Shown in pieces: positions 4,565 to 16,001 of a stretch of 41,614 bases of DNA. Each line of letters begins with the position of its first letter. Positions within the stretch are counted from its first letter, which is position 1. The notes beneath the pieces were generated by a model, which worked only from the letters and a program-made list of their open reading frames with translations, searched no databases and was not told where the DNA came from. Made by a program: the position numbers and the translations under genes. Origin of the DNA: an uncultured Pseudomonadota bacterium (lineage in GTDB: Bacteria > Myxococcota_A > UBA796 > SXON01); the NCBI GenBank assembly GCA_903959175.1, contig CAJBVW010000435.1, positions 1 to 41,614 on the forward strand, given 5' to 3'.

Positions 4565-6277
<1,713 letters not shown>

Positions 6278-7218: not shown

Positions 7219-8766
7219 ATGACATCCCTCTTCTCACGCGCCGTCGCTCCGCGCGCCCTGGCCGCGCTCGCCTCCGGGCTGATCCTCACGTTCGTCTCGC
7301 CGCCCTTCGGCCTGTCGGCGCTGCACTGGATCAGCTTCGTGCCGCTGTTCGTGGCCCTCCGGCCGGACGAGCCGCGCATGAACTTCAAGCTCGGCTACCT
7401 CACCGGGTTCTCCGGCGTCTTCTGCCTGTTCTTCTGGCTCGCCCAGACGATCACGGTGTTCTCGAACATCCCGCTCGTCCTCGCGGCCGGCATCGTGGTG
7501 CTGTTCGCCGCGGTGTGGGGCCTCCCGTACGGCCTGGTCGCGATGGCGGTGCACCCGCTGCGCCGCCGCTTCGGCGCGGGGTGGATCTTCCTGTTCCCCG
7601 CCGTGTGGGTCGGGATGGAGTACCTGCAACCCGCGCTCTTCCCGTACTACCAGGGCGTCGGGCAGTACCGGACCCCGTGGGTGTGGCAGCTCGCGAGCGT
7701 GTTCGGCGCGATGGGCGTGTCGTACCTCGTGATCCTCGTGAACGCGGCCCTCGCCTCCCTCGTGATCGCGCGCCGGGAAGGCACCCCGATCCCCTGGCCC
7801 GCGCTCGCCGCCGCCGCCGCGTTATGGTTCGCAAACCTCGGCTTCGGCGCGTGGCGCTACAACGCGGTCGAGGCCACCCTCGCCGCCGCGCCGCTCCTGC
7901 GCACCTCCGTCCTCCAGCAGAACGTCACCATGGTCACGCGCATCCAGGAGCGTGGGAACGACGTGCTCAAGTCGTGGGTCCAGCTCACCGGCCTCGTCGC
8001 GCCGGAGAAGCCCGACCTCGTCGTCTGGCCCGAGGGCTCCGTCGGCTACAACCCGAACGAAGGCAAGGCGAAGGAGATCTTCTCCCAGCTGAGCCAGCGC
8101 GGCGGCTTCGACTTCCTGATCGGCGGCGGGACCTTCGGTCACGACCCCGCGGACCCGACGCGCCGCGCGAGCTGGAACTCGGCGTACCTGTTCGACAAGT
8201 CGGGCGAGATCAGCGGACGCTACGACAAGATGGTGCCCCTGCCCTTCGGCGAGTACCTGCCGTGGCCCGTCTCCTACCTCAAGGACTACATCGAGGGCGT
8301 AGGGGACTTCCGGGCCGGCATCGAGCCCGTCGTCTTCAAGACCGGCGCGTACACCTTCACGACGCCCATCTGCTACGAGGCCATCCTCGAGTCACAGATG
8401 CGCAAGCTGATGGACGCAGACCTCTTCGTGAACATCACGAACGACGGGTGGTTCGGCAACACGTCGGCGCCCCACCAGCACGCCATGCTCGCCGCCGTCC
8501 ACGCCGTGGAGCTCGGCCGCCCCATGCTCCGCGTCGCCTACACGGGCGTGAGCATGGTCGTCGAGCCGCACGGCGCCATCCCCTTCGAGACCAAGCCCTT
8601 CCACGACGAGGCCGCCGTCGTGCCCATCCGCATGGCCAAGTTCGAGACCCCCTACCGCACCTGGGGCGGCTGGTTCCCCGCCGTCGCGAGCCTCGTCGGC
8701 GCGCTCTCCCTCCTCGCGGTCTACCTTCGACGGGCCCCTGTCACACCCACCTCGTCCGCGTCGTAG
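7219..8766 (+). CDS. lnt: Apolipoprotein N-acyltransferase
   Basis: Lnt adds the third acyl chain to the N-terminal cysteine of lipoproteins in the inner membrane, the last step of their maturation. The protein is 515 aa. Its N-terminal part has about six hydrophobic segments, beginning ALAALASGLILTFVSPP. The periplasmic nitrilase domain carries the Glu-Lys-Cys triad at Glu272 (VVWPEGS), Lys337 (GRYDKMVPLPFGEYLPW) and Cys385 (TPICYEAIL). These lie close to the E. coli positions 267/335/387. One more membrane segment closes the protein. The gene suits its surroundings, where at least five lipoprotein-type genes occur. It starts 10 bp after the crotonase gene. Confidence 0.95.
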   Translation: MTSLFSRAVAPRALAALASGLILTFVSPPFGLSALHWISFVPLFVALRPDEPRMNFKLGYLTGFSGVFCLFFWLAQTITVFSNIPLVLAAGIVVLFAAVWGLPYGLVAMAVHPLRRRFGAGWIFLFPAVWVGMEYLQPALFPYYQGVGQYRTPWVWQLASVFGAMGVSYLVILVNAALASLVIARREGTPIPWPALAAAAALWFANLGFGAWRYNAVEATLAAAPLLRTSVLQQNVTMVTRIQERGNDVLKSWVQLTGLVAPEKPDLVVWPEGSVGYNPNEGKAKEIFSQLSQRGGFDFLIGGGTFGHDPADPTRRASWNSAYLFDKSGEISGRYDKMVPLPFGEYLPWPVSYLKDYIEGVGDFRAGIEPVVFKTGAYTFTTPICYEAILESQMRKLMDADLFVNITNDGWFGNTSAPHQHAMLAAVHAVELGRPMLRVAYTGVSMVVEPHGAIPFETKPFHDEAAVVPIRMAKFETPYRTWGGWFPAVASLVGALSLLAVYLRRAPVTPTSSAS

Positions 8767-8783: not shown

Positions 8784-9305
8784 GTGACGGACCCATCCTC
8801 CGACGAGGCCTTGATGGACCAGGTGCAACAGGGGAGCGCAGACGCCTTCGCGACCCTGTTCGGGCGCCACCGTGCCCCGCTCTACGGCTACCTCCTCCGC
8901 ATGACCCGGCGCGCCGAGGTCGCCGACGACCTCTTCCAGGAGACCTTCCTCTCCGTCCACCGTGCCCGCGCCACCTGGGTGAGCGGGGGTGGCACCTTCC
9001 GCAGCTGGCTCTACCGCATCGCGACGAACGCCGTGCGCGACGGGGGCCGGCGGACCCAGCGGCGCCCGGAGGTCTTCGGCCTCGAGGTCGAGCTGGTCTC
9101 GAACGACGCGCCCGCAGATCGGATCGCGCTCGAACGCGCCCTCGGCGCGCTCCCGGAGAACCTGCGCGACGCGTTCCTGCTCGGCACCGTGTACGGCTTC
9201 GACCACAACGAGATCGCCTCCACCCTCGAGATCTCTACCGACAACGCCCGCGCCCGCCTCTCCCGCGCCCGCTCCCGGATGCGCGAGCTCCTGGAGACGT
9301 CGTGA
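8784..9305 (+). CDS. ECF-type RNA polymerase sigma factor
   Basis: This 173-aa protein has the two-domain layout of extracytoplasmic-function sigma factors. Region 2 (AFATLFGRHRAPLYGYLLRM, then DDLFQETFLSVHRA) recognises the -10. Region 4 (ALGALPENLRDAFLLGTVYG, then FDHNEIASTLEIS and RARLSRARSRMRELL) is the helix-turn-helix that recognises the -35. The start is a GTG at 8784, with CGGAG six bases upstream; an ATG at 8813 would cut into the first helix. The stop overlaps the next gene by 4 bp (GTGA). That neighbour has one membrane segment, the usual sigma/anti-sigma pairing. The third gene of the overlapping set encodes a secreted caspase-like protein. Confidence 0.93.
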   Translation: MTDPSSDEALMDQVQQGSADAFATLFGRHRAPLYGYLLRMTRRAEVADDLFQETFLSVHRARATWVSGGGTFRSWLYRIATNAVRDGGRRTQRRPEVFGLEVELVSNDAPADRIALERALGALPENLRDAFLLGTVYGFDHNEIASTLEISTDNARARLSRARSRMRELLETS

Positions 9306-9886
9306 CAGACGCCGAGCTCGATCTGAAGCTTCAGGAGCTGGGGCCCGTCGAACCGCCCCGAGGTGTTCAGGCGCGCGTGCTCACCGCCGTCGGCGTGTCC
9401 GACGCGCGCGTCGCGGCCCTCATCGGCCCCGAACCCCTCCCCCTCCGTATGCCCCCCGCGCGTCCCCGCTGGCGCTGGCCCATCGCAGTGGCATCGGTCG
9501 CGATGGCGGCCGCCGCCCTCTACGCGGTGGTCCCCTCTCCGCCCGAACGCGCCCAGCCGGACGCGCTCGTCCCGCGCGGCTTCGGCGACATCCGCCCGAG
9601 CCTCGGCCTCCGCGTCGCCGTGCGCAGCAGCGGACAGGTCGAGCGCCTCCGCCCGGGGCAGGCCTATCAGCCTGGCGACACCTTGCTGTTCCGCGTGTCG
9701 AGCTCCGTGCCGGTTGATATCGTGTTGCGACGCGGAGACGCCGTCCTCTACCGCGGGGCCGTCCCCGCGGGGGACACCGACCTCCCCGTCGGGTACACCC
9801 TCGAGGCCGGGGAGGCCGCCGCGCCCTTCGTCGTCGAGGGGTCCGGGGCCGAGGCCCGCTTCGACATGACGGCGGTGCCGCGATGA
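9302..9886 (+). CDS. Single-pass membrane protein, probable anti-sigma factor
   Basis: The 194-aa product has a short cytoplasmic N-terminus (about residues 1-55) with no clear zinc-binding anti-sigma motif. One membrane segment follows (about 60-80, WPIAVASVAMAAAALYAVV), then a periplasmic domain rich in beta strands. That domain, with RPGQAYQPGDTLLFRVSSS and VDIVLRRGDAVLYRGAVP, resembles the DUF4384-like domains often found beside secreted caspases. It starts at GTG 9302, overlapping the sigma gene stop, and its own stop overlaps the caspase gene ATG. The anti-sigma role is inferred from this position and topology, not from a recognised domain. Confidence 0.75.
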   Translation: MTDAELDLKLQELGPVEPPRGVQARVLTAVGVSDARVAALIGPEPLPLRMPPARPRWRWPIAVASVAMAAAALYAVVPSPPERAQPDALVPRGFGDIRPSLGLRVAVRSSGQVERLRPGQAYQPGDTLLFRVSSSVPVDIVLRRGDAVLYRGAVPAGDTDLPVGYTLEAGEAAAPFVVEGSGAEARFDMTAVPR

Positions 9887-11457
9887 TCTCCCTCCTCGCA
9901 TCGATCGCGCTCGCCGGCGTCGTCTCGGTGGCGCCCGGCGCCGAGGCCGACGTGTTCGCGCCGCGGCGGGTAGCCGTGGTCATCGGCGTGCAGCAGTACA
10001 CGGACCCGGCGCTCCAGGGCCTCCGGTTCGCCACGAAGGACGCCCGCGATCTCGGGGCCGCGCTCGGCAGCCGCGACATCGGCGGCTTCGACCGGGTGAC
10101 CGTCCTCGAGGGCGCCGCCGCCACGTCGCGGGACGCGCTGCGACGCGCACTCGTCGCCGCCACGGCCGACCTCCAACGGGACGACACCTTCCTCCTCTAC
10201 CTCTCGGGCCACGGCACCCTCACGCTCGACCCGGAGTACGGCAGCCAGCTCTGGTTCCTCCCCTCGGACGCCCGGCTGGACGCCCCCGCGCAGACCGGGC
10301 TCGCCGTCACCGAGCTCGAAGAGCTGGTCAACGCCCTACCGGCGCGGCGCCGCGTGCTCATCCTCGACACCTGCCACAACGGCCGCAGCGGCTCGAAGAG
10401 CTCGCTGTCTGGCTCCACCGCGCGGCAGATCCAGGGTCTCCGCGGGGAGCCGCCGGCACCGCGGGGCGATCGCGAGGTCTCCGAGTCCGAAGCCCGCTTG
10501 TTCGCCGCCCAGTACTACCAGCCCGCGATGGAGGACCCCGACCTCCAGAACGGCGTGTACACCCACTTCCTGCTTGGCGCGCTCACCGATGCGCGCGCCA
10601 CGGCTGACCTCGATCGGGATGGTCTCGTCGATGTCTCCGAGGCGCACGAGTACGCACGCGACCGGACGATTGCCTACACCGGCGGCCTCCAGGTCCCTCG
10701 GGCCGAGTACCGCATCGTCGGCAGCGAGGAGATCTACCTCTCGGGCCGCGCGTCCGAGCGATCCGCGGCAGAGCAGGCGCTCATCTCGGCGTACGACCGC
10801 GTGCTCGACGGCGCCCGCCTGCTCGTCAACGGGATCCCGCGCGGCGCGCTGCCGGGCCTCTACGCCGTGGAGCCCGGCGCGCAGCTCATCGAGGTCCAGA
10901 CGGAGGACGGGCGCACGCTCGTGAGGGACCGCGTGCAGGTCCGCGCCGGCGCGCGCCTCCCCATCGAGGACATGGTCCGTCGCAACGACCCGACCGTCGA
11001 GCTCCTCGGCGGCGCGGCCTGGCAGGGCGGCACCGATCTGGTGCACGCGACCCATGCGAGCGCCCAGGTCGCGTGGGTCCGGCCGTTCGCCTCCCCCGCG
11101 CTCCTCCGCCCCGACCTCCACCTCACCGCCGACTACGCCGCGGGCCCCCTCGCCGACGTCCCCGGCGTGACCAGCGGCAGCGTTGCCCTCGGCGCCACGC
11201 TCGGCTTCGACCTCGGCGCGCTCTGGGTCGGCCCCGGCGCGGACCTCCGCCTCCCCTTCCGCGCGAACCGCTGGGGCGAGGCTCAGTACGCGCTCGCGGG
11301 CGCCGGGCTCCTCTCCGCGGGTGGGGGCGCCCCGCTCGGCCGGGCCGTGTCCCTCGAGGTCCGCGCCGATGCCTCCGTCGGTACGCAGCCCAGCTCGGAC
11401 GGCGTCGATCCCGTCTACGGCGTCGCGGTGCGCGCCGGGCTCCGCTTCCATCCGTAG
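9883..11457 (+). CDS. Secreted caspase-family (C14) protein with C-terminal barrel-like domain
   Basis: The 524-aa protein opens with a signal peptide (MISLLASIALAGVVSVAPGAEA). It continues with a caspase-like peptidase domain of clan CD: VAVVIGVQQYTDPALQGL, the catalytic His110 in LYLSGHGT and Cys164 in LILDTCHNG. Prokaryotic relatives cleave after basic residues or act in stress and death responses. Residues 330 onward look different, with alternating short beta strands and Gly/Ala turns (e.g. GATLGFDLGALWVGPGADL) and a final aromatic-containing strand GVAVRAGLRFHP. This suggests an outer-membrane barrel-like or periplasmic beta domain. The ATG overlaps the preceding gene by 4 bp, so the sigma/membrane protein/caspase genes form one translationally coupled set. 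The target is unknown. Confidence 0.88.
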   Translation: MISLLASIALAGVVSVAPGAEADVFAPRRVAVVIGVQQYTDPALQGLRFATKDARDLGAALGSRDIGGFDRVTVLEGAAATSRDALRRALVAATADLQRDDTFLLYLSGHGTLTLDPEYGSQLWFLPSDARLDAPAQTGLAVTELEELVNALPARRRVLILDTCHNGRSGSKSSLSGSTARQIQGLRGEPPAPRGDREVSESEARLFAAQYYQPAMEDPDLQNGVYTHFLLGALTDARATADLDRDGLVDVSEAHEYARDRTIAYTGGLQVPRAEYRIVGSEEIYLSGRASERSAAEQALISAYDRVLDGARLLVNGIPRGALPGLYAVEPGAQLIEVQTEDGRTLVRDRVQVRAGARLPIEDMVRRNDPTVELLGGAAWQGGTDLVHATHASAQVAWVRPFASPALLRPDLHLTADYAAGPLADVPGVTSGSVALGATLGFDLGALWVGPGADLRLPFRANRWGEAQYALAGAGLLSAGGGAPLGRAVSLEVRADASVGTQPSSDGVDPVYGVAVRAGLRFHP

Positions 11458-11501: not shown

Positions 11502-13010
11502 ATGACGGTCCTCCTCGCGCTCCTCGGCTGCTCCACCTTCGGCCCCTGGCAGGACACCGGGCCCGTGGACGAGGGCGGGGACGGCGTGCGGATCGTCGCG
11601 AGCCCAGCGATGCTCGACTTCGGCACGCTCCCCGTCGAAGACGCACCGGGCGCCGTCGCCACACTGACGCTCTACAACCTCGGCGACACCGTCGAGACCA
11701 TCACCGGCCATGACGAGCCCATCGGGAGCGACGCCTTCCACGTCGACGCCCCCGCCGTCCTCGAGCTCGGACCCGGCGAGTCCATCGAGCTGGACGTGAC
11801 CTACGCCCCGAGCACCGATCAGACGGACGCCGCCGAGCTCCTGATCGCGCCGAGCAAGGAGACGGTTCGCCTGTCCGCCGTCGCCACCGCGCCGGCTCTC
11901 ACCGTTGCGGCCAGCAACATCCCCGCCGTGGTGCTCGGTTGCAGCGGCACGGGCGGCGTAACGCTCGCGAACGAGGGCTCCGACCCCCTCGACATCTTCG
12001 ACGCGCGTGTCGAAGGCGACGAATACGCCGTGGTCGCGTTCCCCGCGCGGATCGAGCCCGGGCAGACGGCCGCGGTCACCCTCTCCTTCGCCCCGGGCGG
12101 CGGCGGAAACCGGGGGACCATCCTCGTCCTCAGCTCCAACGACCCTCTCCGCCCCGAGATGGGCGTCGCGGTCTCCGCGCTCGGCTACGAGGGTGCCGGC
12201 GTGACGGAGTCCTTCCGCTACACCCCGTCCAACCCCACGGATCTACTCTTGGTCGTCGCGACCGGCGGCTCGATGGCCACCCAGCTCGACAAGGCGATCG
12301 ACGCCCTCCCGCTCTTCACCGACGCCCTCCGCGACGCCAACATCGACTACCATGTGGCCGCGCTCTCGGGAGGGAGCACCTGCCCCTCCTCGTCCCCGGG
12401 GTGGGCCGATCGCGCCGACACCTCGCTCCAGACCGAAGGTGTGCTCGAACGCGGGTTCCTGGGCGAGTCTGGGAGCTGGGACGTGGACCTCCTCGGGCTC
12501 GCCTCCGAGGCGCTGCGGAACGCGGACACGGGCGGCTGCCTCGACGGGTTCCGTAGGCCGGAGGCCGATCTCCACGTCATCGTCGTGAGTGACGCGCCGA
12601 GCGGAGTCGACGTGACCGGGCCCGAAGGCCAGCTCGACGCCTCGATGGAGGCGCCGGCGGAGCTTCGGGTGTCGGGCCTCCTCCCGACGACCGGCACCTG
12701 CGGCTCCCCTGCCCCCGACTACGCGGCCGTCGCCGAGCGCCACAACGGCATCGTGAGCGACCTCTGCGCCCCCTCCTGGACGGACGCCTTCCTCGACTTC
12801 ACGGCGTTGCCCGAGGGGCGCGGCGCGGTGCGGTTCCCTCTCGCGGAGGCGCCGGTGCCCTCCACCATCGAGGTGCTCGCGGAGGGCGTCTCCTTCCACG
12901 CCTGGTCCTGGGACGCCGACACCAACGCGATCCTCTTCGACGGCAAGCAGGTGCCCGCGCTCGGCGCCGAGATCACCGTCGGCTACGTGCTCGCCGTCTC
13001 CTGCGACTAG
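11502..13010 (+). CDS. Lipoprotein with SPD-2/Hydin-type and vWA-like domains
   Basis: This 502-aa protein begins with a very short lipoprotein signal (MTVLLALLGCSTF, lipobox LLGC). Two Ig-like segments of the ASPM/SPD-2/Hydin choice-of-anchor D type follow. The first runs from about residue 28 (PAMLDFGTLPVEDAPG, ending before LGPGESIELDVTYAPS). The second is near 145-225 (SGTGGVTLANEGSDPLDIFD, IEPGQTAAVTLSFAPGG, VLSSNDPLRP). The C-terminal half looks like a vWA-type fold: DLLLVVATGGSMATQLDKA resembles the DxSxS opening but lacks the usual Asp. It is a predicted surface or periplasmic lipoprotein of unknown role. It lies 44 bp after the caspase gene on the same strand and may share its transcript. 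Confidence 0.85.
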   Translation: MTVLLALLGCSTFGPWQDTGPVDEGGDGVRIVASPAMLDFGTLPVEDAPGAVATLTLYNLGDTVETITGHDEPIGSDAFHVDAPAVLELGPGESIELDVTYAPSTDQTDAAELLIAPSKETVRLSAVATAPALTVAASNIPAVVLGCSGTGGVTLANEGSDPLDIFDARVEGDEYAVVAFPARIEPGQTAAVTLSFAPGGGGNRGTILVLSSNDPLRPEMGVAVSALGYEGAGVTESFRYTPSNPTDLLLVVATGGSMATQLDKAIDALPLFTDALRDANIDYHVAALSGGSTCPSSSPGWADRADTSLQTEGVLERGFLGESGSWDVDLLGLASEALRNADTGGCLDGFRRPEADLHVIVVSDAPSGVDVTGPEGQLDASMEAPAELRVSGLLPTTGTCGSPAPDYAAVAERHNGIVSDLCAPSWTDAFLDFTALPEGRGAVRFPLAEAPVPSTIEVLAEGVSFHAWSWDADTNAILFDGKQVPALGAEITVGYVLAVSCD

Positions 13011-13016
13011 GCGGGC

Positions 13017-15407
13017 TCACCTCCGACGAGGCCGGGACAACGCCGCGAAGTCGTCGAGCGTCCGCGCGACCCTGCCGAACACGCTCCCCTCCGGGTGGTC
13101 GCCCTCCGCGTCCCGTTCGCCCGCGGAGATCCCAGTCAGGAGCTCGATGCCTTCCTCCACGCGGCTGATCGCGTAGACGTGGAAGCGCCCCGCCGCGCAC
13201 GCCTCCTGGACGGCCGCGGAGAGACAGAGGTCGGGCACGTTGTGATGCGGGATCATCACTCCCTGGCGGCCCGTGAGGCCACCCAGACGGCACGCGGTGA
13301 AGAAGCCCTCGATCTTCTCGTTCACGCCGCCCACGCCCTGCACCTCCCCGAACTGGTTGACCGACCCGGTCACCGCGATGTCCTGCCGCAGCGGGACGGC
13401 GGCGAGCGCCGAGAGGAGCGCGTACACTTCGGCCGTGCTCGCACTGTCGCCGTCGATGCGGGCGTAGGACTGCTCGAAGCACATCGACGCCGTGAAGCAG
13501 AGCGGTCGCTTGCGGCCAAAGTGCTCGAGGATCACGCCCCGGAGGATCTGCACGCCCTTCTGGTGGACGCGCCCGGAGAGCCGCGCCTCGCGCTCGATGG
13601 AGACGACGCCGCCGCGCCCCACCCCGACCGTGGCGGTGATGCGCATGGGGCGGCCGAAGTCGTGCCCGCCGACATGGTAGACCACCAGCGCGTTGACCTG
13701 CCCGACGCGGCGCCCGTCCACATCCACGCGCAGCACGCCGCTCTCGAGCATCTCGATGACGCGACGCTCGGCGAGGTCGTCCCGATCCCGGCGCGCACGG
13801 AGGGCCGCCTCGACGTGGGTCCGTTCGACGAGCGCACCCGCGGCCTCGAAGGAGGCTTCGCGCAAGAGATCGACGATGCTGCCGAAGCGCGTCGTGATGC
13901 GGCCGCCACGTCCCGCGGCCCGTACCGCCCATTCGAGCACGGCGTAGACGCCCTCGCGTGAGAGATGGGACAGCTTCTCGCGGCGCACCATACGGGCGAC
14001 GAACCCCCCGTATTCCTTGAGGAGCACCGGGGAGCACGGCGCGTCCTCCTCGAACTCCGCCTTGATCTTGAAGACGCTCTGGAAGTCCGGGTCGCCGTAG
14101 AAGAGCGCGGCGTAGGTATCGAGGTCCCCGAGCAGCACCACCTTCACGTCGAGCTGCATGGAGTCGGGTCGCAGCATGGCGATGCCGGCGTTGAGGGGGC
14201 TCTCGGGGTTCTGGATGTCGACCTGCCCGAACATCAACGCGCGCTTGAGGACCCGCCAGGCGCCAGGATCCTGGAGGAGGTCCGCCGCGTTGAGGACGAG
14301 GAAGCCGCCATCGGCGTCCTGGAGCGAGCCGCCCCGGATGTTCCGGTGGTCGACCGCCGACTCCCCCTCGATGCCGCCGAAGAGGAGGGGCCAGGTCGCG
14401 TTGGGGACGACCACGATGGGCGCGTGCGGGCTGCGCGAGCCGCGGTGGATGACGTTGACGGTGCACGCGGCGAAGAGCCGGTCCTGGTCGCCGTCCTCGT
14501 CGAACCACTCGAGCGACTCCACCAGCTCCTCGTGGAGCTCGTGCAACCAGGGCCGCGCGGACGGCCACCGGCGGCCGAGGTCGGCGAGGACCTTGCGCGT
14601 CCCGAGGTCGATCGCCTCGCGCTCCGCCTCCGCAACCTTGCGCACGGTGTCCATCACCGCCTCGCGGGAGAGGTTGAGCGCCGCGGCGAGCTCACGTTCG
14701 AGCAGATCGAAGCGCCGCAGGATCTCGTGGAGCGGCTCGGAGAGCGCCATGGCGCCTGCGTGCGCGAGGACCTGGAGTTCGGCGCGAGTGTGCACGGGGG
14801 CGTCCTCACGCGAGCCGCCCGGCTCGATTTCCACACCGTTCACCCAGAGGATCACCGGCCCCCCCCCCTCGCCGAGGTCTCCGATGAGGAAACCGAGCTC
14901 GCGGGCGTGGGCTTCGAGGCGCTGGAGGGCGCCGTGGTGGGTGACCTCCGCGTCCTGAGTGCGCCGATCCCGCTTCGTCCTCACCTCGTCCGAGCGCAGG
15001 AGGCGCGGCACCTCCTCCAGGAGCGCCGCAGCCACGCGGAGCAGCTCCTTCCGGAACGCGACGCCGCGGCCTGGGGGAAACTCGAGGAGCCGGGGGCGCG
15101 CGGGCTCCTTGAAGTTCGCCACGTAGACGAGGTCCCGGGTCTTCCGTCGCCGGGGCCGGAGCTCGTCGAGGATCCGCTTGACCGTGCCGAGGCGGCCCGT
15201 CGAGAGCAGCCCGACCACGAAGACGTTGAAACCAGGGCCTTCGAGGAGCACGCCCCGCCGAAGCGCGCTCGTCGCATTCGGCTGGCCGATGATCGTCTCG
15301 ATGGAGGGCACGTCGGCGGTGCTGCGAAACTCGAGTACACCCTCCGGCACGCGCCAACCGAGCTGCCCGACATCGAGTGCGGGGATAGGCATCGGAGCAA
15401 TCTCCAC
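13017..15407 (-). CDS. Lon-family ATP-dependent protease (AAA_32 type)
   Basis: The 796-aa protein belongs to the Lon-related S16 group with an AAA_32-type ATPase part (as in bacterial LonB/YcbZ-like proteins). A degenerate P-loop region (NVFVVGLLSTGRLGT) and a Walker-B-like DADGGFLVLNAADLL occupy the N-terminal two thirds. The C-terminal protease domain has the Ser-Lys dyad at Ser655 (IDGDSAST) and Lys698 (GVNEKIEGFF). The 43-residue spacing is the same as in E. coli Lon (679/722). The start chosen is the GTG at 15405-15407, because AAGGAGG lies four bases upstream. In-frame ATGs at 15434 and 15446 have no ribosome site. The gene meets the upstream lipoprotein gene convergently with a 6-bp gap. 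Confidence 0.92.
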   Translation of the reverse strand: MEIAPMPIPALDVGQLGWRVPEGVLEFRSTADVPSIETIIGQPNATSALRRGVLLEGPGFNVFVVGLLSTGRLGTVKRILDELRPRRRKTRDLVYVANFKEPARPRLLEFPPGRGVAFRKELLRVAAALLEEVPRLLRSDEVRTKRDRRTQDAEVTHHGALQRLEAHARELGFLIGDLGEGGGPVILWVNGVEIEPGGSREDAPVHTRAELQVLAHAGAMALSEPLHEILRRFDLLERELAAALNLSREAVMDTVRKVAEAEREAIDLGTRKVLADLGRRWPSARPWLHELHEELVESLEWFDEDGDQDRLFAACTVNVIHRGSRSPHAPIVVVPNATWPLLFGGIEGESAVDHRNIRGGSLQDADGGFLVLNAADLLQDPGAWRVLKRALMFGQVDIQNPESPLNAGIAMLRPDSMQLDVKVVLLGDLDTYAALFYGDPDFQSVFKIKAEFEEDAPCSPVLLKEYGGFVARMVRREKLSHLSREGVYAVLEWAVRAAGRGGRITTRFGSIVDLLREASFEAAGALVERTHVEAALRARRDRDDLAERRVIEMLESGVLRVDVDGRRVGQVNALVVYHVGGHDFGRPMRITATVGVGRGGVVSIEREARLSGRVHQKGVQILRGVILEHFGRKRPLCFTASMCFEQSYARIDGDSASTAEVYALLSALAAVPLRQDIAVTGSVNQFGEVQGVGGVNEKIEGFFTACRLGGLTGRQGVMIPHHNVPDLCLSAAVQEACAAGRFHVYAISRVEEGIELLTGISAGERDAEGDHPEGSVFGRVARTLDDFAALSRPRRR

Positions 15408-15416
15408 GCGTCCTCC

Positions 15417-16001
15417 TTGTTCGTCACGCTTCATCGCGATCGCCATGTGCAGGTGCTCGAAAAGCCTGTCGGCATCGCCGTTGTCCCCTCGCGGGACGGC
15501 GGGCCGTCCATCGAGCGCGAAACGGGTCTGCTCGTGTGCCACCGCCTCGACCGTGAGACGAGCGGCTGCCTCGTCATGGCGCGCACGCCGGAGGGCCAGC
15601 GCGCGCTGAGCCAGGCGTTCGCCGAGGGCAGGATCCAGAAGGAGTACCTCGCCATCATCGTGGGGCACGTCCCGGCGAGCGGGGAGATCGACGTTCCGCT
15701 CGGCGAGTGGAAGCGCGGGCGCGTGCAGATCGGCACCGGGCGCGCCGCGAAGACGCGCTTCGAGGTGCGCTGGCGGACGAAGGGCCGCGCGGGGGTCCTC
15801 GTCTCGCCCCTCACCGGCCGCACCCACCAGATCCGCGCGCACTTCTCCACGTTGAACGCGCCGCTCCTCGGAGACCCCACCTACGGCGGCCCTGCGGCCG
15901 ATCGCCTCTACCTTCACGCATGGCGCGTGCGCCTCCCGTCCTTCGACGGGGAGCCGGAGACCTGGGTCACGTCCCCGATCCCGCCCGGGTTCGACGGGTG
16001 A
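15417..16001 (+). CDS. RluA-family RNA pseudouridine synthase
   Basis: This enzyme converts specific uridines in rRNA or tRNA to pseudouridine. The roughly 194-aa protein has the RluA motif HRLDRETSG with the catalytic Asp. It also has the KEYLAIIVGHV strand, the LTGRTHQIRAHF motif and LGDPTYGG. It lacks an S4 RNA-binding domain, like RluA itself. The start is uncertain: homology extends to at least LHRDRHVQVLEKPVG. The only in-frame candidate upstream of that is the TTG at 15417, which has no ribosome site and lies 9 bp from the divergent protease start. A GTG at 15447 would clip the first strand. The stop overlaps the next gene start by 4 bp (GTGA). Confidence 0.85.
   Translation: MFVTLHRDRHVQVLEKPVGIAVVPSRDGGPSIERETGLLVCHRLDRETSGCLVMARTPEGQRALSQAFAEGRIQKEYLAIIVGHVPASGEIDVPLGEWKRGRVQIGTGRAAKTRFEVRWRTKGRAGVLVSPLTGRTHQIRAHFSTLNAPLLGDPTYGGPAADRLYLHAWRVRLPSFDGEPETWVTSPIPPGFDG

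Follow-up and report, generated by a model that had tools for sequence, protein, structure and literature searches.

The window, by which we mean the whole 41,614-nucleotide stretch of DNA analyzed here from an uncultured bacterium, carries three adjoining genes that encode an ECF sigma factor, a one-pass membrane protein that presumably serves as its anti-sigma factor, and a secreted caspase that appears to end in an outer-membrane β-barrel (Table 1). The original prediction had described three genes joined by two 4-bp overlaps, and all the open reading frames were indeed found in place; the shared bases are GTGA at the sigma/anti-sigma junction and ATGA at the anti-sigma/caspase junction. 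Because the gap between lnt and the sigma gene is only about 17 bp, any sigma promoter would lie within lnt or before it.

Table 1. Genes and predicted features of the locus, in window coordinates
Feature	Position	Strand	Basis
lnt, apolipoprotein N-acyltransferase	7219..8766	+	Pfam LNT_N 1.4e-26, CN_hydrolase 4.4e-20
ECF sigma factor, 173 aa	8784..9305	+	GTG start; Pfam Sigma70_r2 7.7e-17, r4_2 5e-12
Membrane anti-sigma factor (putative), 194 aa	9302..9886	+	GTG start; AF2 model pLDDT 86; NCBIfam match 1.5e-4
Anti-sigma transmembrane helix, residues 55-75	9464..9526	+	AF2; hydropathy scan of orthologues
Candidate caspase site V90-P91-R92-G93 in juxtamembrane linker (residues 76-100)	9569..9580	+	Column entropies
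Anti-sigma periplasmic β-sandwich ectodomain, residues 101-187	9602..9862	+	AF2 strands, pLDDT above 90
Secreted caspase with C-terminal outer-membrane β-barrel (predicted), 524 aa	9883..11457	+	ATG start; Pfam Peptidase_C14 8.1e-12
Caspase domain, residues 28-240	9964..10602	+	Pfam match
His110	10210-10212	+	SGHGTL
Cys164	10372-10374	+	DTCHNGR
R187-G188, candidate autoprocessing site after catalytic Cys	10441..10446	+	Invariant in 17 aligned orthologues
8-stranded outer-membrane β-barrel, residues 371-522	10993..11448	+	AF2, pLDDT about 80-96

The identification of the first gene product as a sigma factor holds. Pfam places region 2 at residues 25-94 and region 4 at residues 115-166; the protein has these two regions only and no region 1 or 3, as in ECF sigma factors, and its score against TIGR02937 is above the cut-off of that model. 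Sigma factor identity within the window's family is 59-79%.

The model of the middle protein shows three cytoplasmic helices, one transmembrane helix, a flexible linker and a β-sandwich ectodomain. The one-pass topology that had been proposed is thus borne out, and one strong transmembrane segment is likewise found in the middle gene of 63 triplets. No Pfam family matched the window's protein, its weak NCBIfam anti-sigma match is below cut-off, and a Foldseek search with the model gave no PDB match at E 1e-3. The zinc motif H-x3-C-x2-C (zf-HC2) is absent from the window protein and from the family alignment, which places the protein outside the ZAS class. Among paralogues in the same gene slot, zf-HC2 was matched over cut-off in one (3.6e-6) and below cut-off in another (0.0021), and a regular-expression search found the zinc-finger anti-sigma motif in further ones. 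These motifs point to an anti-sigma role for the middle gene, the window's copy being one in which the zinc ligands appear to have been lost. The protein also has the layout of a membrane anti-sigma factor in that it adjoins a sigma gene and combines a cytoplasmic N-terminus and one transmembrane helix with an extracytoplasmic domain, and it presumably acts on the sigma factor encoded beside it.

The outer part of this protein had been called DUF4384-like, which holds as a distant similarity and not as a family assignment. Pfam DUF4384 (PF14326) matched neither the window protein nor 16 orthologues, so a direct assignment was rejected. The similarity is transitive, via a profile (A5) made from eight paralogous ectodomains without caspase information, which matches three window-type orthologous loci as well as two loci matched by Pfam DUF4384.

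The third protein belongs to peptidase family C14; the Pfam match (PF00656) is over its cut-off and the best obtained, a CHAT match being below cut-off. The predicted signal peptide can be read from the sequence as MISLLASIALAGVVSVAPGAEA/D. The catalytic dyad is intact as originally reported, and an alignment of 17 orthologues shows no variation at His110, Cys164, Asp53, Asp162 or Arg187-Gly188. Asp53 and Asp162 may belong to an acidic S1 pocket of the kind used for cleavage after Arg/Lys, if the metacaspase positions assumed to be equivalent are so. Comparison of PDB metacaspases with the caspase profile gave weak alignments that ended short of the Cys region, a PDB search with the single caspase sequence gave no match, and the p20 part of the AF2 model is poor. 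Two other assignments were tried and set aside: the EACC1-associated caspase model (NF047832) scored 103.8 bits, below its curated cut-off of 140 bits, and for a defence island PADLOC matched only its generic caspase model.

The C-terminus, earlier noted as barrel-like, is modelled as eight confident strands whose Foldseek matches are NspA (E 3e-6), OmpA, OmpX and Ail, all with probability 1.00. It is thus an OmpA/OmpX-type 8-strand barrel by predicted strands and structural matches, its location being a prediction, and the caspase is apparently anchored in the outer membrane. Given the signal peptide and the C-terminal position of the barrel, the topology of such barrels implies that the protease domain would be suspended in the periplasm from the outer membrane.

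Relatives have conserved the triplet. A full-length caspase orthologue is present in 21 of the 22 genomes of the window's family, and each of the 19 loci on a sufficiently long contig has the three genes in the same order with both 4-bp overlaps, the start codon being placed for overlap at each junction in this count. Recurrence of order and overlaps in 19/19 loci at 53-75% caspase identity argues that the arrangement is not due to chance. The two outcomes that would have told against the proposal, a caspase gene without the sigma pair in most relatives and loss of catalytic residues in orthologues, did not occur; the dyad never varies. In all 24 orthologous loci whose sequence extends far enough, lnt is the gene directly upstream of the sigma gene, mostly at a distance of some 20 bp or less; this linkage and short gap suggest that lnt and the three genes probably form one transcription unit, with lnt as its likely first gene. 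One congener (G008) has no triplet anywhere in its genome; on its 73-kb contig the 3' ends of lnt and a LonB-like gene touch, the whole block between these two genes being gone. That all three genes were lost together suggests that the triplet is a single dispensable unit.

The arrangement is also repeated within and beyond the window's own genome. The three catalytically intact caspases of that genome (the window's and two others, C147 and C495) are all in sigma/anti-sigma/secreted-caspase triplets; a fourth homologue, C144, has lost the catalytic Cys and has no sigma gene. When 191 genomes of the phylum were searched with the A5 profile and 70 loci were examined, the caspase was directly downstream in 66 and a sigma gene upstream in about 60. 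Orthologues found by a scan of named genomes come from records titled Myxococcota, Myxococcales, Deltaproteobacteria or proteobacterium; some other record titles, among them Klebsiella pneumoniae and Bifidobacterium breve, evidently belong to mislabelled MAGs. Beyond the close relatives, the gene order recurs at a Pseudobacteriovorax locus (L063). The host group is mostly uncultured bacteria. This wider set of triplets, the linkage to lnt and the logic of an outer-membrane anchor all go beyond the original prediction.

The linker between the transmembrane helix and the ectodomain of the anti-sigma protein contains a single strongly conserved block, V-x-[R/K]-G, within an otherwise variable and flexible stretch. 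Column entropies are 0.32 at V90, 0.32 at R92 and 0.00 at G93, and mostly 1 to 3 at neighbouring positions. Where R92 is replaced, the substitute is Lys (one case in the linker alignment; loci L051 and L053). The block sits where the anti-sigma model is least confident (pLDDT 63-72). An [R/K]G after the transmembrane helix is present in all 26 orthologues (shuffle mean 10.9) and in 28 of 37 paralogues (shuffle mean 15.7), counts that were reached in none of 500 shuffles in either case. In the A5 set the site is of the R-x-K-G type, with [R/K]G in 62 of 66 and K-A or K-S in the other four. The zinc-finger proteins of the family were considered as a control and are uninformative, since most are without a transmembrane helix and ectodomain. 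One exception to the rule of a downstream caspase in the A5 loci (L187) keeps an anti-sigma protein with RTKG beside its sigma gene and has a Ser/Thr kinase gene in place of the caspase gene.

The linker block resembles the [R/K]-G of the caspase's own post-cysteine loop. This loop is where caspase-type enzymes autoprocess. Each of the 26 orthologues has LRG, FRG or MRG there, at Cys+21 to +28, the site being L-R-G in the window type and R-x-K-G in the A5 type. Across paired caspases, 106 of 117 have [R/K]G in the post-Cys loop and 11 have none; because 13 of 22 unpaired caspases have it as well, the motif in the loop is a general one, and it is the anti-sigma motif that is informative. The P1 residue of the caspase loop is the same as that of the partner anti-sigma protein in 97 of 102 pairs. 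For some of the pairs this tally favoured Lys sites, and the A5 part was re-counted with a K/R-blind rule; as there are only about three caspase-residue changes on the tree, this agreement is suggestive and not independent evidence. Agreement of Arg at P3 between the caspase loop and the anti-sigma protein is likewise suggestive: the association has a Fisher value of 0.003, and the independent pairs (about 3.5 same and 0.1 opposite, of 6) are not significant.

Orthocaspases cleave after basic residues (PMC6426788), and in the present case the caspase would cleave the anti-sigma protein after Arg92. The original prediction that the caspase could cut its neighbour gains specific support from the basic-Gly motif conserved in the linker and its match in the caspase loop; the cleavage itself we infer.

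Since the anti-sigma protein carries a conserved candidate cut site, the enzyme probably switches the sigma factor on by cutting its brake. We put at about even odds (a probability near 0.5) the reading of the module in which an outer-membrane-anchored caspase would be the site-1 protease that cuts the anti-sigma protein after Arg92 and so frees sigma. The one-pass anti-sigma protein would hold the sigma factor at the inner membrane while the exported caspase is tethered in the outer membrane by its 8-strand barrel, with the protease domain towards the periplasm. As the caspase would be tethered to the opposite membrane, contact, and hence cleavage, should depend on the condition of the envelope; a disturbance, for example failed barrel assembly or membranes drawn close, could let the caspase reach the anti-sigma protein. 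A cut after Arg92 (V-x-R/G), between the transmembrane helix and the ectodomain, would constitute the site-1 step of regulated intramembrane proteolysis, and an RseP-type site-2 protease, for which the genome has a candidate (PF02163, 3e-59), together with cytoplasmic proteases could then free the sigma factor. The site-2 step and the inducing signal we infer; the lnt linkage would fit outer-membrane biogenesis as the process monitored, and the signal itself is a guess. More tentatively, with chances that we judge to be a little short of even, the same scheme may describe a widespread system in which outer-membrane-anchored caspases are dedicated site-1 proteases of co-encoded anti-sigma proteins, the linker site (V-x-[R/K]-G or R-x-K-G) resembles the enzyme's own autoprocessing loop, and the output is transcription instead of cell death.

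The caspase might instead be an output of the sigma factor, as an envelope protease or quality-control effector produced when needed, with ordinary DegS-like site-1 proteases cutting the anti-sigma protein and co-transcription accounting for the gene order. Targets of sigma factors often share an operon with their sigma gene, and a sigma gene with an RTKG anti-sigma gene and no adjacent caspase gene, as at L187, fits this reading as well. On the other hand, the basic-Gly site conserved in the linker is of a kind cut by orthocaspases, and the ectodomain family occurs almost solely beside caspases (66/70), which argues for direct contact between the two proteins. We consider the output reading somewhat unlikely.

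A further reading, unlikely in our estimation, takes the V-x-R/K-G motif to be the structural start of the ectodomain, with no relation to proteolysis. In each of the two families the motif is near the first strand; it is kept at L187 where no caspase gene is adjacent, and can be set against no good control set of homologous ectodomains without caspases, as none exists. Against this, its spacing from the first strand is not constant between the families, the model has low confidence in the linker, and Arg is exchanged for Lys, another basic residue, at L051 and L053.

It is distinctly improbable that the linker or the ectodomain is a pseudosubstrate inhibitor or receptor, in which an uncut R/K-G would fill the active site and tether the caspase until a signal separates the two, much as outer-membrane transducers do in cell-surface signalling. 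The resemblance between the motifs fits binding as well as cutting, and outer-membrane barrel proteins are known to protect anti-sigma factors by direct contact (PMC11637429); but flexible linkers such as the one that holds this site are typical places for cuts, and an Arg-Gly lying exposed in the active site of a working protease should itself be cleaved. An envelope-stress death switch, as first suggested, in which the caspase, on being freed, would break down envelope proteins and kill the cell while sigma control sets the timing, is very improbable: caspase homologues are often discussed in connection with cell death (PMC3501461) and the block is dispensable, having been lost cleanly in one congener, but nothing in it points to such a switch, as it has no toxin, pore or nuclease partner, is stably and vertically conserved beside lnt, and has no defence-system context beyond the generic caspase model in PADLOC.

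Direct cleavage by the caspase is our preferred reading. The role of bacterial caspases outside defence and cyanobacteria is largely open, and here location, a single substrate and a cut site are all predicted, so that the role of the enzyme can be tested directly with purified proteins. A full-text literature search for caspases or orthocaspases in combination with ECF sigma factors, anti-sigma factors or regulated intramembrane proteolysis found the module undescribed, an earlier mention in the main ECF classification being possible; by this search, the module appears to be an unreported form of protease-controlled ECF signalling.

Several known systems share parts of it. In the EACC2-caspase/TRADD-N/ECF sigma/DUF1822 neighbourhoods of PMC8195603 a caspase gene adjoins an ECF sigma gene; their accessory EACC2, DUF1822 and TRADD-N were not seen at this locus, and the excerpted description of those systems includes neither a one-pass anti-sigma protein nor an outer-membrane anchor. 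Bacterial orthocaspases and metacaspases of family C14 (PMC6426788, PMC3501461) have the same p20 domain, His-Cys dyad, D-x-C and post-Cys basic-Gly, whereas the signal peptide, outer-membrane barrel and dedicated sigma/anti-sigma partners set the present protein apart; sigma factors are listed with the domains that occur in metacaspase operons (PMC3501461). ECF54-type contexts (PMC8999054) have protease genes (CHAT, subtilase, carboxypeptidase) in a conserved ECF sigma context, with a mechanism proposed there that operates without an anti-sigma factor, unlike the arrangement here.

The nearest mechanistic precedent is Csx29/Csx30/CASP-sigma, in which the CHAT protease Csx29 cleaves Csx30, and Csx30 in turn inhibits an ECF sigma factor (PMC10028731). 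The likeness to this type III-E CRISPR system (Craspase/CASP) is that a caspase-like protease cuts, or in our case would cut, an ECF sigma inhibitor. Craspase differs in being cytoplasmic and RNA-triggered, in having a CHAT and not a C14 p20 domain, and in acting on soluble Csx30 with no membrane or outer-membrane barrel. Membership in the Craspase group was rejected: the protease is best matched by C14, and no Cas7-11 effector, Csx30 or Csx31 was found among the neighbours examined.

In cell-surface signalling (FecA/FecR/FecI), an outer-membrane barrel protein likewise signals via an inner-membrane anti-sigma factor to an ECF sigma factor, but the barrel here would be an 8-strand one that bears a protease domain, in place of a TonB-dependent receptor and its signalling plug. 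The RseA/DegS/RseP sigma-E and RsiV-type pathways of regulated intramembrane proteolysis share with the module a one-pass anti-sigma factor with a cytoplasmic part that binds sigma (putatively so in our case) and a periplasmic domain, expected site-1/site-2 proteolysis, and a link to envelope biogenesis. They differ in that the candidate site-1 protease here is a co-encoded caspase with a predicted outer-membrane anchor, where those pathways use a DegS-type serine protease or a signal peptidase. If this is correct, caspases would be a further class of enzymes that initiate sigma-factor signalling, next to DegS-type proteases and signal peptidases, and would do so in a module that recurs many times across the Myxococcota.

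The sigma/anti-sigma/caspase block was lost as one unit in a congener (G008): it is absent from contig G008:C169 (loci L083 and L075), and lnt and the LonB-like gene adjoin there, their 3' ends overlapping where the block would stand. The LonB-like gene also lies 3' of the block in many orthologous loci. The lipoprotein-like gene had a counterpart in one congener (L033) and in none of the other loci compared.

Genes downstream of the window caspase, and a further caspase-like gene of the same genome (G000)
Feature	Position	Strand	Remarks
Lipoprotein-like gene (LLGC)	11502-13010		HYDIN/ASH Ig-like domain; just 3' of caspase gene
LonB-like ATP-dependent protease gene	13017-15917	-	Convergent with block
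Secreted caspase-like protein	G000:C144 (L069), 4593-5711		Catalytic Cys lost (VTDAAHEG)

The window's own genome carries two more sigma/anti-sigma/secreted-caspase triplets, on C147 (L003/L070) and C495 (L068); one of the two has a zinc-motif anti-sigma, and in one the caspase C-terminus is an outer-membrane-type terminal strand, LTLGVGYRF. The C144 caspase-like protein, encoded with no sigma gene in its vicinity, has counterparts of about 360-380 aa in many relatives.

A sigma/anti-sigma/caspase triplet is also present in a Pseudobacteriovorax record (L063), with K-S replacing [R/K]-G in caspase loop and anti-sigma linker alike. At L187 (G118:C116), the sigma gene and a zinc-finger anti-sigma with R-T-K-G are followed by a Ser/Thr protein kinase in the third slot, where other triplets have the caspase, possibly a swap of kinase for caspase as partner.
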